From an uncultured SAR86 cluster bacterium (lineage in GTDB: Bacteria > Pseudomonadota > Gammaproteobacteria > Magnimaribacterales > Magnimaribacteraceae): a stretch of DNA of 64,000 nucleotides. Within the stretch, counting starts at the first letter, position 1; each line of letters begins with the position of its first letter. The DNA is taken from NCBI GenBank assembly GCA_902532675.1, contig CACAIY010000001.1:1-64000 (forward strand). Reading direction: 5' to 3'. Below the pieces are notes generated by a model. It did no database searches, was not told where the DNA came from, and saw only the letters and a list, made by a program, of their open reading frames with translations. Shown piece after piece: positions 33,472 to 39,310 of this stretch. Both the position numbers and the translations under genes were made by a program.

Positions 33472-33702
33472 TTGATACAGAGATCTGAATATGCCCAAAG
33501 GACAGGCTTGCGGGCAAAAGGTTTAGTCAGTAAAGTTAATAATATGCATATAGGTGTTATTGTTTTGCTCTTGTTCACAAGCGCTCTTTTCTTTCTTTGG
33601 CAGTTCTCAAAGGGAGAACAGGTCGGAAGAAGAATTGGTTTTCTTCTGAATATTTGGGGAGCTGTAATACTTTTTTATTTAATCATGATTGTGTTCTTGT
33701 AA
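33472..33702 (+). CDS. Small membrane protein of unknown function
   Basis: The frame can start at TTG 33472 (76 residues) or at ATG 33544 (52 residues); neither has a clear ribosome site. Two hydrophobic helices (MHIGVIVLLLFTSALFFLW and a second near the C-terminus) flank FSKGEQVGRRIG. I do not recognise a family. It is 20 bases upstream of the acyl-CoA synthetase and may be the first gene of that operon. Confidence 0.5.
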   Translation: MIQRSEYAQRTGLRAKGLVSKVNNMHIGVIVLLLFTSALFFLWQFSKGEQVGRRIGFLLNIWGAVILFYLIMIVFL

Positions 33703-33722: not shown

Positions 33723-35267
33723 ATGACAGTTCAGCACTATGATTGGTCTGCTTATCATTCAAATGTTAGGCCTAATAAGATAGCGATTAGGGACTTAAGC
33801 AATAATCAGAACTTAACCTACAAAGAGTTGGACGATAGGGCTAACCAGTTAGCCCATTGGTTACAAGCTAACGGAGTAAAAAAAGGGGATAGGATTGCTA
33901 TCCTTTCTCAGAATTGCGCGGAATTCTTCGAATTAGAATTTGCTTGTGCGAAAACAGGTTCAGTAGAACTACCACTTAATTGGAGGCTAACAAAACCGGA
34001 ATTAGAATACATATTAAACGACAGCACTCCACACACTCTAATATATGATGAATCCTTCTCTGAAATAGCTATTGATTTAGTAAAAGATTGCAACATCAAA
34101 TGTTCTCTTCAAATCGATAAAAAAGATGCTTCTAGTCAATACGAGCAAGCAATAAAAGATTCTGATAGTGATTATGAGAAGGTTGATTGTACTCAAGAAG
34201 ACTTAATCATGATTATGTACACTTCAGGAACAACTGGACATCCAAAAGGTGCGATGATCAATCATCAAATGCAACTTTATAATGTAATTAACCTAGCATC
34301 TCCTGCTTTCGTAGGGCCAGACACAGTGCAATTGGTAGTTTTGCCTTTATTTCATACCGGAGGAATGAATTGCTATGCCAATCCTGTACTACATGCTGGA
34401 GGTGAAATAATTCTAATAAGAGAATTTGATCCTGGATTAGCTCTTTCTATATTAGGAAACTCTGATTATGGGGTTTCACATTTCTTTGCTGTACCAGCTC
34501 CGTACCAATTTATGATGAACCACCCAGATTTTGATAAAACAGATTTATCATCTTTAAGAATTGCTGGCATAGGAGGGGCTCCTTGTGCTGAAGCAATCCT
34601 AAAAACTTGGTCAGATAGAGGTGTCTCGATGATACAAGGGTGGGGTATGACCGAAACAAGCCCCGGAGGAATAGGATTGGCAGCTGAAGACTCTGAAAGG
34701 AAACTTGGATCCGCAGGAAAAGCTCTTCTTCACACTGAAATAAAGATAGTAGATGATAAAGGCAAAGAGCTAGGTACAGAAGAAGTGGGCGAATTGTATA
34801 TAAAAGGTCCAAACATAACACCAGGCTATTGGAACAATAAAGAAGCTACAGAAGATTCATTTGAGGACGGATGGTTGAAGACAGGTGATGCTGCGAAATT
34901 TGATGACGAAGGTTTTGTTTACATAGTTGATCGCTCAAAGGATATGTATATATCTGGAGGGGAGAATGTTTATCCGGCTGAAGTTGAAAATGTTCTATAC
35001 CAGTTACCTCAAATAGCTGAAGCTGCAATTATTGGTGTACCTGATGAAAGGTGGGGAGAGACCGGAGTCGCTTTTATATCTCTGAAAGCTGGTGAGAGTC
35101 TGGAAGAAAAAGATCTAATTTCTCATTGCATAGAAAACCTTGCAAAGTTTAAGGTGCCAAGTAAAGTTGAATTTATTGAAGCGCTGCCTAGAAACGCTAC
35201 AGGTAAGGTTTTAAAAAGAACGCTAAGAGAGGATTATATTGGAAGTGATGCGCCTGCTATTTCTTAA
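33723..35267 (+). CDS. AMP-dependent acyl-CoA synthetase, first enzyme of a five-gene operon
   Basis: This 514-residue adenylating enzyme carries the P-loop IMYTSGTTGHPKGAM, GWGMTETSPGG, the hinge segment YIVDRSKDMYISGGENVYP and the C-terminal LPRNATGKVLKR. It activates a fatty or other carboxylic acid to its CoA ester. An AAGGAAG ribosome site precedes the ATG. GST, a linalool dehydratase/isomerase-like protein, an SDR and a VOC protein follow with gaps of 4-6 bases or overlaps, so its acid is probably an intermediate of that pathway. Confidence 0.92.
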   Translation: MTVQHYDWSAYHSNVRPNKIAIRDLSNNQNLTYKELDDRANQLAHWLQANGVKKGDRIAILSQNCAEFFELEFACAKTGSVELPLNWRLTKPELEYILNDSTPHTLIYDESFSEIAIDLVKDCNIKCSLQIDKKDASSQYEQAIKDSDSDYEKVDCTQEDLIMIMYTSGTTGHPKGAMINHQMQLYNVINLASPAFVGPDTVQLVVLPLFHTGGMNCYANPVLHAGGEIILIREFDPGLALSILGNSDYGVSHFFAVPAPYQFMMNHPDFDKTDLSSLRIAGIGGAPCAEAILKTWSDRGVSMIQGWGMTETSPGGIGLAAEDSERKLGSAGKALLHTEIKIVDDKGKELGTEEVGELYIKGPNITPGYWNNKEATEDSFEDGWLKTGDAAKFDDEGFVYIVDRSKDMYISGGENVYPAEVENVLYQLPQIAEAAIIGVPDERWGETGVAFISLKAGESLEEKDLISHCIENLAKFKVPSKVEFIEALPRNATGKVLKRTLREDYIGSDAPAIS

Positions 35268-35272
35268 ACCTT

Positions 35273-35887
35273 ATGAAACTTTATGATTTTTCCGGAGCAC
35301 CTAATCCAAGGCGTGTAAAAATATTTGCTCATGAGAAAGAAATTGATCTTGAGCTAGTTAACTGCGACATGCTCAAGAGAGAGCATAAAACACCAGAGTT
35401 CCTAAAAAAAAGCCCTAGTGGAAAGATACCAGTTCTTGAGCTAGAAGATGGTCGATGTATATCTGAATCTATAGCAATCTGTAGGTACTTGGAAAGTATT
35501 GTTCCGGAACCTAATTTATTTGGAGAAGACTCTTTCGAAATTTCTTACATAGAAAGCAGAAATAGGCACATTGAATTGGAATTATGGACGCAAATTGGTA
35601 TTTCTTGGGTAAATGGCCCAATAGTTGGAAGTATGGGTCTTTTTGAACAAATCCCTGATGCTAAGAAAGCGAGTGATTCGAACGTATCTGCATACTATAA
35701 GAGACTGGATAGAGAATTTTCATCTTCGGAATACGTTGCTGGGAGTAGATACACAGTAGCAGACATAACTTTATTGTCTGCAATAGATTTCGCTTCTAGT
35801 ATGGTAGACCTTAAGCCTTCTGAGAGTCTTAAAAATTTAAATAGATGGCATGAACAAATAAATTCTAGACCTAGCTCTAAATTATAA
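35273..35887 (+). CDS. Glutathione S-transferase family protein
   Basis: This 204-residue GST has an N-terminal thioredoxin-like domain (MKLYDFSGAPNPRRVKIF, KIPVLELEDG, ISESIAICRYL with the glutathione-binding ES) and an all-helical C-terminal domain with YTVADITLLSAIDFA. GSTs conjugate glutathione to electrophiles or isomerise substrates. In isoprene and related catabolic clusters GSTs handle epoxides, which would suit this operon. That link is inference. Confidence 0.9.
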   Translation: MKLYDFSGAPNPRRVKIFAHEKEIDLELVNCDMLKREHKTPEFLKKSPSGKIPVLELEDGRCISESIAICRYLESIVPEPNLFGEDSFEISYIESRNRHIELELWTQIGISWVNGPIVGSMGLFEQIPDAKKASDSNVSAYYKRLDREFSSSEYVAGSRYTVADITLLSAIDFASSMVDLKPSESLKNLNRWHEQINSRPSSKL

Positions 35888-35891
35888 ATTT

Positions 35892-37562
35892 ATGAATCAA
35901 AGAAGTACCAATGACCTAGAGTTGAATGAAAGAGCCCAAGGCTGGCTCAATTTTCTTTACCAGAAGGCCACAACTCCTGACGATTGGACAGAAGATGGAG
36001 AACCTGAAGAGTGGTGGGATAAAACATCTACCCCTCCGATGTGCTCTTTCCCTCGTTTTGATTTACAAGAATCAACTTACGCCCTGGGACTAATGTCTGA
36101 TAGAACACCTGCTTGGAGGGAAGTATATTCTGAAATACTAGATGAAATAGCGGAACGCTCTATAACTTATTGGGCTGCAGTAGATTGGTTATCTCAATTT
36201 GGTCACGATCCTGACAGACCTAATTACCCAGATTTATGGAAAGGTACTCTAATACCTGAAGAGTTTTGGGGCGAATACGATGCTCCTGGATGGACCGCTA
36301 ATGGCGTTGCGCCATGGGGTCTGCAGATGGACCCAATAGGAGCAGATGGAAATTTATTTTTTAAAGGTTGGCTTAACCTTACGCAAGCTCTACACACTTA
36401 TGTCAGTGGATATGACAAGTGGGCCTCTCCGTTCGATCTAGCTGGAGTAAATAGAACAAGATTCGAATGGACTCAACATCAATTGGTTGATCACCTCTAT
36501 CAACAATGGACGAAGACACCGATGGGACCACATTGTGAAAATACAAAAGCTTGGCCTTTTTGTCTTTCGGCTGCAGGTTTAGGACTGCAAATGTATGACA
36601 ACGTATTCAATAAAGAATCTCACTCCGCTTACAAGAATTGGCTCGATCACACAAAGGATAAATACTATGGTTTTGATAAAAATGGTGCGTTGGAATGGGT
36701 GACTATGTATTTTGATGGCTTAAAAAATCATCACCATAGAACCGCACCTTTGCACGGTCTTGCCATAGCTTTCTATGCCAAACCTCAAGACCCTCATTTT
36801 GCTGAATTACTATATAGAGGAGCAATCAATTTTGTTGGTTGGGGAGACCCTTCAATCCCTATTTCCAATGAATTCATAGCAGACCCTCGAATGTTTGCGT
36901 TAGGCTTAACCGTATCTAAAGAATTTGATGACCAAATCACCTACGAGAGATTAAGCAAGCATGCTGAAGAAAATTTTGAACCCAGGTATTTCGGATTAAA
37001 CGATAGTCAGTTTGGTTTTTGGTTTAATCTTGGAGAGAACTGGCCAAGAGGGCAATTGTCCGCTTTAGCTATGTGTGCTGAAGTTTGTGATCCAGGAGCT
37101 TGGGAAAAATTATTTAATCAACCTAATTTAACTAAATATTACTCGCCTTCGGTAGAAGGAATTGATTACCCGGCAGTGACTGTGCAAAAAGCTTTTCACG
37201 ATGACGATAAGGGAAAATTATTTCTAAAAATAAATGACGGCAATAAAACGAAAACAAATAGCGAGACCAGTTTCAAGATCACTAACCTGCCAGAACCAGA
37301 AAAAGTAACCATATTGAAAGATGGTAAGATCTATAAAGATTTTAGTGTCCAATCTTCAGAAGTTGTTGTTAAGACAAATGTTGGGAGTCATGAATTTGAA
37401 ATTGATACTGGTTATTTCCTATCTAAAAAGGATTCAAGTAAGCTGAGTTTAAAAGTTAACGAAGATAATCTAAAGAATGTTTCAAATTCAAAAAAATCCA
37501 GTGGTTCTACATCTAGACTACTTATTTCTTCCCTATATAAAAAACCTTGTAGTTGTTGTTAA
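35892..37562 (+). CDS. Linalool dehydratase/isomerase (Ldi) family protein
   Basis: This 556-residue protein aligns from memory with the Castellaniella linalool dehydratase-isomerase core. FKGWLNLTQALHTYVSGYDKW corresponds to its YKGHLNLMYGLYQLVTG. CENTKAWPFCLSAAGLGLQ corresponds to CEPDNYFVQCNSVAYLSL. The two active-site cysteines are kept as C215 and C224, nine residues apart as in the known enzyme, while the histidine of KGH is W here. There is no signal peptide, unlike the periplasmic prototype. About 150 extra C-terminal residues end in CSCC. The substrate is probably a tertiary or allylic alcohol or a related compound, but that is unproven. Confidence 0.72.
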   Translation: MNQRSTNDLELNERAQGWLNFLYQKATTPDDWTEDGEPEEWWDKTSTPPMCSFPRFDLQESTYALGLMSDRTPAWREVYSEILDEIAERSITYWAAVDWLSQFGHDPDRPNYPDLWKGTLIPEEFWGEYDAPGWTANGVAPWGLQMDPIGADGNLFFKGWLNLTQALHTYVSGYDKWASPFDLAGVNRTRFEWTQHQLVDHLYQQWTKTPMGPHCENTKAWPFCLSAAGLGLQMYDNVFNKESHSAYKNWLDHTKDKYYGFDKNGALEWVTMYFDGLKNHHHRTAPLHGLAIAFYAKPQDPHFAELLYRGAINFVGWGDPSIPISNEFIADPRMFALGLTVSKEFDDQITYERLSKHAEENFEPRYFGLNDSQFGFWFNLGENWPRGQLSALAMCAEVCDPGAWEKLFNQPNLTKYYSPSVEGIDYPAVTVQKAFHDDDKGKLFLKINDGNKTKTNSETSFKITNLPEPEKVTILKDGKIYKDFSVQSSEVVVKTNVGSHEFEIDTGYFLSKKDSSKLSLKVNEDNLKNVSNSKKSSGSTSRLLISSLYKKPCSCC

Positions 37563-37568
37563 TTTGAT

Positions 37569-38399
37569 ATGTCATTAAGTAGTTTCTCCTTAGAAGGAAA
37601 AAAAGCGCTAGTTGTTGGCGCAAGAAGAAATATGGGAAAAGGTTTTGCTTTAGGGCTGGCTGAAGCAGGAGCTGATGTTGCAGTGACTGACGTAAATTTA
37701 GAGTCAGGTCAGCTTCAAGCCGTAGCAGACGAGATCAAAAAAATGGGACGTAAATCATTAGCTTTAAAAGCAGATATATCGAGCCAAGAAGAGGTAAAGA
37801 AATTAGTAGAAAATGTGGTTAAAGAATTTGGAACCATAGACATACTAATGAATGTGGCTGTGATGTATCACCCCAAGTCAGTAGTTGATTTAGATGAAGA
37901 GTCTTGGGATAAACTAACAGACGTAAATCTAAAAGGTTACTGGTTAATGATTCAAGAAGTCTCACCAATAATGATGAATCAGAAAAGTGGAAGCATAATT
38001 AACTTAACTTCAAGAGGAGGGCTTAAAGCTCATGCAGATAAAATGATGGGAAACTACGCAATTGTTAAATCTGGAATTGCCATGATGACACGACAATATT
38101 GTAGATACCTCGGACCTTACAATGTAAGAGTTAATGCGATAGCTCCTTCATTGGTTGAATGGGAAGAATTTCCAGGCCAAGAAAACATAAAGAAAAAGAG
38201 CAGCCCTTCAAAGAAAGAGAATAGGGAGATAACTGATGAAGAGAAATTCGAATCCTGGCTTACTGGACCAGAAAACCTTCCTTTAGGAAGGGTTGCAACT
38301 TTTGAAGAGATGGCAAATGCAGCTGTCTTTCTAGCATCTGATGCATCAAGCTACGTAACCGGGACTATTCTTAATGTTGATGGCGGTTACATGGCATGA
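37569..38399 (+). CDS. Short-chain dehydrogenase/reductase of the Ldi operon
   Basis: This 276-residue SDR has an atypical cofactor loop, GARRNMGKG, instead of TGxxxGIG, and MNVAVMY where NNAG is expected. The catalytic residues are seen in LTSRGG and YAIVKSG, and the C-terminus VTGTILNVDGGYMA is standard. An insertion of about 25 charged residues follows APSLVEWEEF. It probably oxidises an alcohol made in the operon. The start lies six bases after the Ldi-like gene, and the stop overlaps the VOC gene by four bases. Confidence 0.88.
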   Translation: MSLSSFSLEGKKALVVGARRNMGKGFALGLAEAGADVAVTDVNLESGQLQAVADEIKKMGRKSLALKADISSQEEVKKLVENVVKEFGTIDILMNVAVMYHPKSVVDLDEESWDKLTDVNLKGYWLMIQEVSPIMMNQKSGSIINLTSRGGLKAHADKMMGNYAIVKSGIAMMTRQYCRYLGPYNVRVNAIAPSLVEWEEFPGQENIKKKSSPSKKENREITDEEKFESWLTGPENLPLGRVATFEEMANAAVFLASDASSYVTGTILNVDGGYMA

Positions 38400-39310
38400 G
38401 CGAAGATTGGACTCTCAACCACCTAGGCATGATGGTCACGGACAAGAATGCAGCGCTTAATCAATTTCAAGCCTTTGGCTTGGGAGTTAGTGTAGGACCT
38501 CAACCTTTGCAACCTTATGAAGAAGGGGTTGGCGAACTTATGTATTTCGAAACTCTAGACGGAGATCCGGTAACCCATCAATATAAAACTGGAGGGATTC
38601 ATAATTTTAGAGATGGCAATTCTCAAATTGGAGATTGTCAGCTAGAGGTTTATCCAATGAAGCCAGGACCGGGCATTTTTATTAGTGAATATTTACAAAA
38701 GAAGGGACCTGGGATTAATCACATAGCATTCAATACACCTGATATAGAAAGAGACACAAAGAGATTCTTAGAAAAAGGTTGTGACTTAGTTTTTAATGCA
38801 ACTGTTAACGGTAAGACTATTGAAAATTATCTAGATACTCGTAAATACGGAGATGTAATGATTTCCCTAAGACCCCCAGCTGATGAATGGGAAATTGCAT
38901 GGAGAGAAAATAACAGATCTCATCCATTAACAAAGGATTGGAGTTTTTTTGGAGCTGGCGTAGTGGTTGAGGATTGTGAATTAGCTACTGAATATTTTTT
39001 AAATTTGGGCTTCAGCTTAAAAAAGGAAGCTCATGAATCTCAAGAGCTTGGCATTAAATTAAGTCATATAAGAGTTGGTTCTATGATGTTTGAGCTTATT
39101 CAACCAATTGCTAACAATTCAATTTACAAAGAATGTTTCAATAAAAGAGGAGAGGGCATTGCCGACATGTCATTTATCGTAAAAGACTTGCCTTCTGAAA
39201 TTGATACTCTTGTGAGTAAGGGCGCAGATCTTCTGAATTCAAATGATGAAAGTGCAGTCATCGATGTGAGAAAAGATGGAAATATCATTATTAGACTTCT
39301 GCAAACATGA
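38396..39310 (+). CDS. Two-domain VOC (glyoxalase/dioxygenase-fold) protein
   Basis: This 304-residue protein has two vicinal-oxygen-chelate halves: WTLNHLGMMVTDKNAALNQF with GPGINHIAFNTPDI, then WSFFGAGVVVEDCELATEYF with GEGIADMSFIVKD. The histidines NHLG and NHIAF in the first half are plausible metal ligands, while the second half looks poor in ligands. VOC proteins include epimerases, lyases, dioxygenases and methylmalonyl-CoA epimerase. It is last in the operon and overlaps the SDR by ATGA. Confidence 0.82.
   Translation: MSEDWTLNHLGMMVTDKNAALNQFQAFGLGVSVGPQPLQPYEEGVGELMYFETLDGDPVTHQYKTGGIHNFRDGNSQIGDCQLEVYPMKPGPGIFISEYLQKKGPGINHIAFNTPDIERDTKRFLEKGCDLVFNATVNGKTIENYLDTRKYGDVMISLRPPADEWEIAWRENNRSHPLTKDWSFFGAGVVVEDCELATEYFLNLGFSLKKEAHESQELGIKLSHIRVGSMMFELIQPIANNSIYKECFNKRGEGIADMSFIVKDLPSEIDTLVSKGADLLNSNDESAVIDVRKDGNIIIRLLQT

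Follow-up and report, generated by a model that had tools for sequence, protein, structure and literature searches.

The locus raises the question of what a protein of the linalool dehydratase/isomerase (Ldi) family might do in an uncultured SAR86 cluster bacterium of the surface ocean. The only two characterised family members that we found, LinD and Lis, both come from denitrifying monoterpene degraders and carry out the reversible conversion of linalool and geraniol (and myrcene); LinD is a homopentamer with the active site at the subunit interface. No publications on a SAR86 Ldi were found in literature searches. In the window, i.e. the whole stretch of 64,000 nucleotides that was analysed, the gene is located at 35892..37562 on the + strand and encodes a protein of 556 aa from an ATG start, here called P0001. 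The strand opposite this ORF contains many stops and offers no competing reading frame, and the gene is real.

P0001 matched Pfam Ldi (PF18566) with 47.9 bits, as compared to a gathering cut-off of 26.1, and no other Pfam family. The core match covers residues 145-313 (36324..36830, + strand) and contains F157-K-G-W160-L-N162 as well as C215-E216...C224. A single-sequence search of the PDB gave a weak result (E 0.33). When a profile of 12 P0001 relatives was searched against 177,635 PDB sequences only LinD entries were obtained (E 1.4e-5, residues 143-258), with C215 and C224 placed opposite LinD C171 and C180, and the LinD residue numbering used below is anchored on this alignment. Identity between P0001 and LinD is ~21% (68/328), and both the Pfam and the PDB matches span the core alone, with the N-terminal alignment being unsure. 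Judged by these comparisons, the likeness of P0001 to the Ldi family is not a matter of chance. The family membership put forward in the initial annotation was thereby confirmed by profile searches, and no other alpha/alpha-barrel family took its place, with Ldi as the sole Pfam match and LinD ranked first for a model of the barrel (see below).

The same annotation had read two cysteines nine residues apart, a conserved block preceding them, a tryptophan instead of histidine after KG and the lack of a signal peptide, and all of these readings held. The cysteines delimit C215-E-N-T-K-A-W-P-F-C224 (36534..36563, + strand), which aligned with LinD C171-C180, and both are invariant in 19/19 family sequences. 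The preceding block, FKGWLNLTQALHTYVSG at residues 157-173, contains FKGWLN, in which W160 occupies the LinD H129 site. A Kyte-Doolittle scan with 19-residue windows gave a best mean of 0.70 for the whole protein and of -0.58 for starts within the first 45 residues, revealing neither a hydrophobic N-terminus or export signal nor the four N-terminal transmembrane helices of Lis. P0001 is thus probably cytosolic. LinD, in contrast, has a periplasmic export signal and a C49-C102 disulfide, and Lis has a cytosolic catalytic part in addition to its four helices.

To which members of the family is P0001 most closely related? A tree of 19 family members separated LinD, the LinD-like L040 and the Lis-like proteins from the longer proteins with a support of 1.0; "Lis-like" here denotes an architecture (~650 aa, hydrophobic N-terminus), the Lis sequence itself being left out of the comparison. 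Among the longer proteins, those from SAR86, from AqS3 (a Gammaproteobacteria bacterium associated with a sponge), from Streptomyces and from a further gammaproteobacterial family, represented by three genomes (L080, L085, L086), clustered together (support 0.92). The nearest sister groups, A and C, consist of long gammaproteobacterial Ldi proteins (L043, L079, L087, L044) that have P0001's N-terminal block but differ from it in a CEV..C motif and in Tyr at both the H129 and Y66 sites. Lis from Thauera linaloolentis and the Lis-like proteins (L038, L070, L072) share the Cys pair with P0001, and the Lis-like proteins also lack H129 and are extended at the C-terminus, where a beta domain may be homologous to that of P0001, but they form a separate clade and retain Y66. 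As read from the alignment and the tree, P0001 is not an orthologue of LinD or Lis but belongs to a separate, longer clade.

In named records the relatives of P0001 are almost all from SAR86 cluster bacteria. The Ldi gene was present in 21/203 genomes of the window's order, and all 21 fall within one family (35 genomes); among 399 genomes of the phylum, the window's own Ldi gene was the only one found. Further relatives were found in AqS3 (L036, 52% identity), in the L080, L085 and L086 genomes (39-43%) and on two Streptomyces plasmids (40%), the sole copies of the clade among plasmid records, and none were found in viral contigs and phage records. One gammaproteobacterial family (G150 and relatives; L038, L065-L087) contains many Lis-like and long Ldi proteins, in 18/36 genomes and with a maximum of three per genome. 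Two records call for caution. The single-cell contig CACDOC010000014.1 (L023/L024) resembles its own mirror image, and the presence of two Ldi copies on it therefore probably reflects an artefact of assembly or amplification. The 3.4-kb contig JAAZYV010000014.1 (L032) is binned as Rhodobacteraceae, carries a SAR86-type Ldi with an amidase neighbour as in L030, and is probably mis-binned.

P0001 and LinD (Castellaniella defragrans, EC 4.2.1.127, PDB 5G1U and 5HLR) share the Pfam family, the CE...C-spaced Cys pair and the DP and KG motifs, and the equivalents of LinD C171, E172, C180, D117 and G128 are invariant in 19/19 aligned family sequences. Neither LinD nor Lis needs a cofactor to act on the hydroxyls of isoprenoid alcohols (PMC6013536, PMC4791888). 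Exchange of the active-site Cys of LinD for Ala or Ser, at both sites, gave folded protein with abolished activity (PMC6600392). LinD needs a reductant, and both acid/base and covalent mechanisms have been proposed (PMC6600392, PMC6013536).

Other positions are not conserved. LinD M125 is F157 and F177 is W221 in P0001, and both sites are altered throughout the SAR86-type clade, where LinD Q179 is F or Y (F223 in P0001) and LinD F70 is E60, with the exception of Streptomyces (Y). The changes also concern D39, Y45, Y66 and H129, which we take to be active-site residues of LinD. His at the H129 site is confined to LinD and L040; the Lis-like proteins have Y/W there, groups A and C have Y, and the SAR86-type clade has W or F. 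At the Y66 site, Tyr is found throughout the family alignment except in the SAR86-type clade, which has Phe (F56 in P0001). At the aligned P0001 positions, where the N-terminal alignment is uncertain, neither counterparts of D39 and Y45 nor a Cys at either site of the capping disulfide C49-C102 were found. With H129 and Y66 exchanged and no aligned counterpart for D39, Y45 or C49-C102, the chemistry of P0001 may have changed.

About 150 added C-terminal residues had been described for P0001. The extra length is there, yet it is made up of two separate parts, ~100 residues of beta domain and a ~45-residue linker ending in CxCC, the latter motif being absent from the initial annotation. The beta domain (residues ~405-510; 37104..37421, + strand; model pLDDT 74-94 over 431-510) is common to the longer Ldi relatives. 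It aligned with that of group A (hhalign E 2.9e-21) and weakly with the Lis-like proteins (hhalign E 0.003), to whose C-terminus it is perhaps homologous. Group A lacks the CxCC tail, and LinD lacks both parts. The variable linker (last ~45 residues; 37422..37559, + strand) ends with C553-S-C555-C556. All three Cys are conserved without exception in the alignment (12/12 sequences), as compared to an average top-residue frequency of 45% at the other tail positions. The tails of L080, L085 and L086 end with CACC, CSCC and CSCSCC, and in AqS3 the protein continues for 12 residues beyond the motif. Within the clade CxCC is missing only from Streptomyces, where the protein ends directly after the beta domain. 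No tail was found in other frames downstream of the Streptomyces Ldi genes and their branch is nested among tailed sequences, which argues for a loss of the tail. CxCC may serve as a redox arm, as a metal site or in assembly. Possibly, though we hold this to be unlikely, it may be a swinging thiol arm that reduces the active-site Cys pair and could be recharged by a glutathione S-transferase (GST) encoded next to P0001. To our knowledge, no such thiol arm has been described in the Ldi family; if it were true, Ldi chemistry with an oxygen-sensitive Cys pair could run in an oxic cytosol.

On the + strand of the window, the Ldi gene is preceded by genes for an AMP-binding acyl-CoA synthetase (acyl/feruloyl-CoA synthetase, FadD13-like; 33723..35267) and the GST (35273..35887; nearest solved relative yeast Gtt2), and is followed by genes for a short-chain dehydrogenase/reductase (SDR; 37569..38399) and a two-domain VOC protein (glyoxalase/methylmalonyl-CoA epimerase-like; 38396..39310) that overlaps the SDR gene by 4 bp; the other separations are 4-6 bp. 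Upstream of the ligase lies an ORF of 76 aa (33472-33702) that has a hydrophobic end and no Pfam match; its position is kept in several SAR86 genomes. The five-gene order is conserved in L026, L028 and L033 and appears at a contig edge or in part in L023 and L025; L027 and L029 retain ligase, GST and Ldi. In relatives without Ldi, the ligase is followed directly by SDR and VOC (G009, G010, G014, G028) or SDR and VOC alone are present (G023). This direct junction suggests that GST and Ldi form a two-gene insert that is gained or lost jointly. Orthologues of the GST (69% identity or more) were present in 20/21 Ldi-bearing genomes vs. 4/14 without Ldi (Fisher p 5e-5, a test that ignores shared ancestry and genome incompleteness), and in some genomes (G012, G016, G018) the orthologue is unlinked to Ldi. 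The VOC gene did not track Ldi (p 0.18), and therefore no partnership is claimed for it.

Other Ldi copies adjoin an amidase, sulfatase or DAPG-hydrolase-like gene. In AqS3, Ldi is followed by a P450, a 3beta-HSD/epimerase-like protein and a zinc ADH, and P450s, flavin monooxygenases, a thiolase and a ChsH2-like protein are encoded close to the Ldi genes of gammaproteobacterial relatives. A theme shared by the Ldi loci is the aerobic breakdown of hydrophobic alcohols or ketones. Only one P450 of the window's genome passes the Pfam cut-off (G000:C8:35417-36283), and it is not adjacent to the Ldi gene. A CobW-like GTPase gene (xRVxSVVGFLGSGKTT) is found directly 3' of the group A genes L043, L079 and L087 (records L043, L092, L093).

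AlphaFold2 models of full-length P0001 and of the barrel, made from shallow alignments (12-13 SAR86-type sequences), had mean pLDDT of 53 and 49, too low to place C215 and C224. Searched against 350,542 PDB chains, the barrel-only model nevertheless returned LinD chains at the top (probability 1.00, E 0.014, TM 0.37-0.45), in agreement with the sequence result. The full-length low-confidence model instead matched GH127 and N-acylglucosamine epimerase structures, and the GH127 matches were set aside as evidence of function (TM <0.3). These matches, together with a beta domain similar to the side domains of GH30/GH51, are what could speak for a carbohydrate-active alpha/alpha-barrel enzyme (epimerase, unsaturated glycuronidase or GH127-like). 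As Ldi is the only Pfam family matched, LinD leads the ranking for the model without the beta domain and the operon contains no glycan genes, we consider such an enzyme highly improbable.

Could P0001 then be a linalool, geraniol or myrcene enzyme like LinD or Lis, acting on monoterpenes from phytoplankton? The shared family and Cys pair fit this, and a missing H129 is by itself compatible with linalool isomerisation, since the Lis-like proteins (Y or W) are also without this residue. The clade is, however, set apart from LinD and the Lis-like proteins with full support, and Y66, M125 and F177 are altered clade-wide, of which Y66 is kept in LinD, Lis-like proteins and groups A and C; a monoterpene substrate of this kind is therefore distinctly unlikely. 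Somewhat less so, but still rather doubtful, is that fold and thiols were kept while the chemistry became linked to thiols or glutathione, for instance by migration of a double bond or isomerisation of an epoxide or enone, and that the GST is the true partner. Loss of the LinD acid residues, the pairing and co-occurrence with GST and the CxCC tail are all in line with this, but the loci of the sponge symbiont and other relatives have no GST adjacent to Ldi (within the locus itself), and the GST may act at a later step. An LDI-like enzyme was formerly proposed for 25-hydroxycholestenone (PMC3691188), and later work describes an ATP-dependent route in such bacteria (PMC7411048, PMC8449060). Given this later route and the absence of support from SAR86, a sterol C25 tertiary alcohol as substrate of P0001 stays a guess.

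The reading that we favour, with moderate confidence, is that P0001 is a cofactor-free Ldi-fold dehydratase or hydroxyl-isomerase of an isoprenoid alcohol that uses the thiol chemistry of C215 and C224. As the catalytic cysteines are kept, most of the other active-site residues changed and a Cys-rich tail gained, the enzyme probably takes a hydroxyl off a different isoprenoid, or shifts it to another position. The homology to LinD suggests acid/base catalysis by the thiols of C215 and C224, or a transient nucleophile in one of the two, and a tertiary or allylic isoprenoid alcohol would be converted to a stabilised cation that either loses a proton, giving an alkene, or takes up water again at another carbon, giving a moved hydroxyl. 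The retained Cys pair and the loss of H129, Y66 and the acid residues suggest the same thiol-based activation of the alcohol in a more aromatic pocket, predicted to comprise F56, F157, W160, W221 and F223 where LinD has Y66, M125, H129, F177 and Q179. These pocket changes and the neighbours, i.e. CoA ligase, SDR, GST and VOC in SAR86 and P450, flavin monooxygenase and ADH in relatives, make a substrate other than linalool likely. P0001 may act with the paired glutathione transferase and feed the ligase-SDR-VOC route; we infer the chemistry, substrate class, direction, order of partners and tail role, as well as a part in the aerobic catabolism of a possibly larger isoprenoid alcohol.

Taken together, the comparisons place P0001 in a separate clade of the Ldi family, in which the pocket seems to be rebuilt and the tail thiols are conserved. 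Such a clade in abundant bacteria of the oxygenated ocean would widen the range of cofactor-free alcohol/alkene enzymes and supply new scaffolds for diene biocatalysis, and it would hint at an unrecognised isoprenoid substrate for SAR86.
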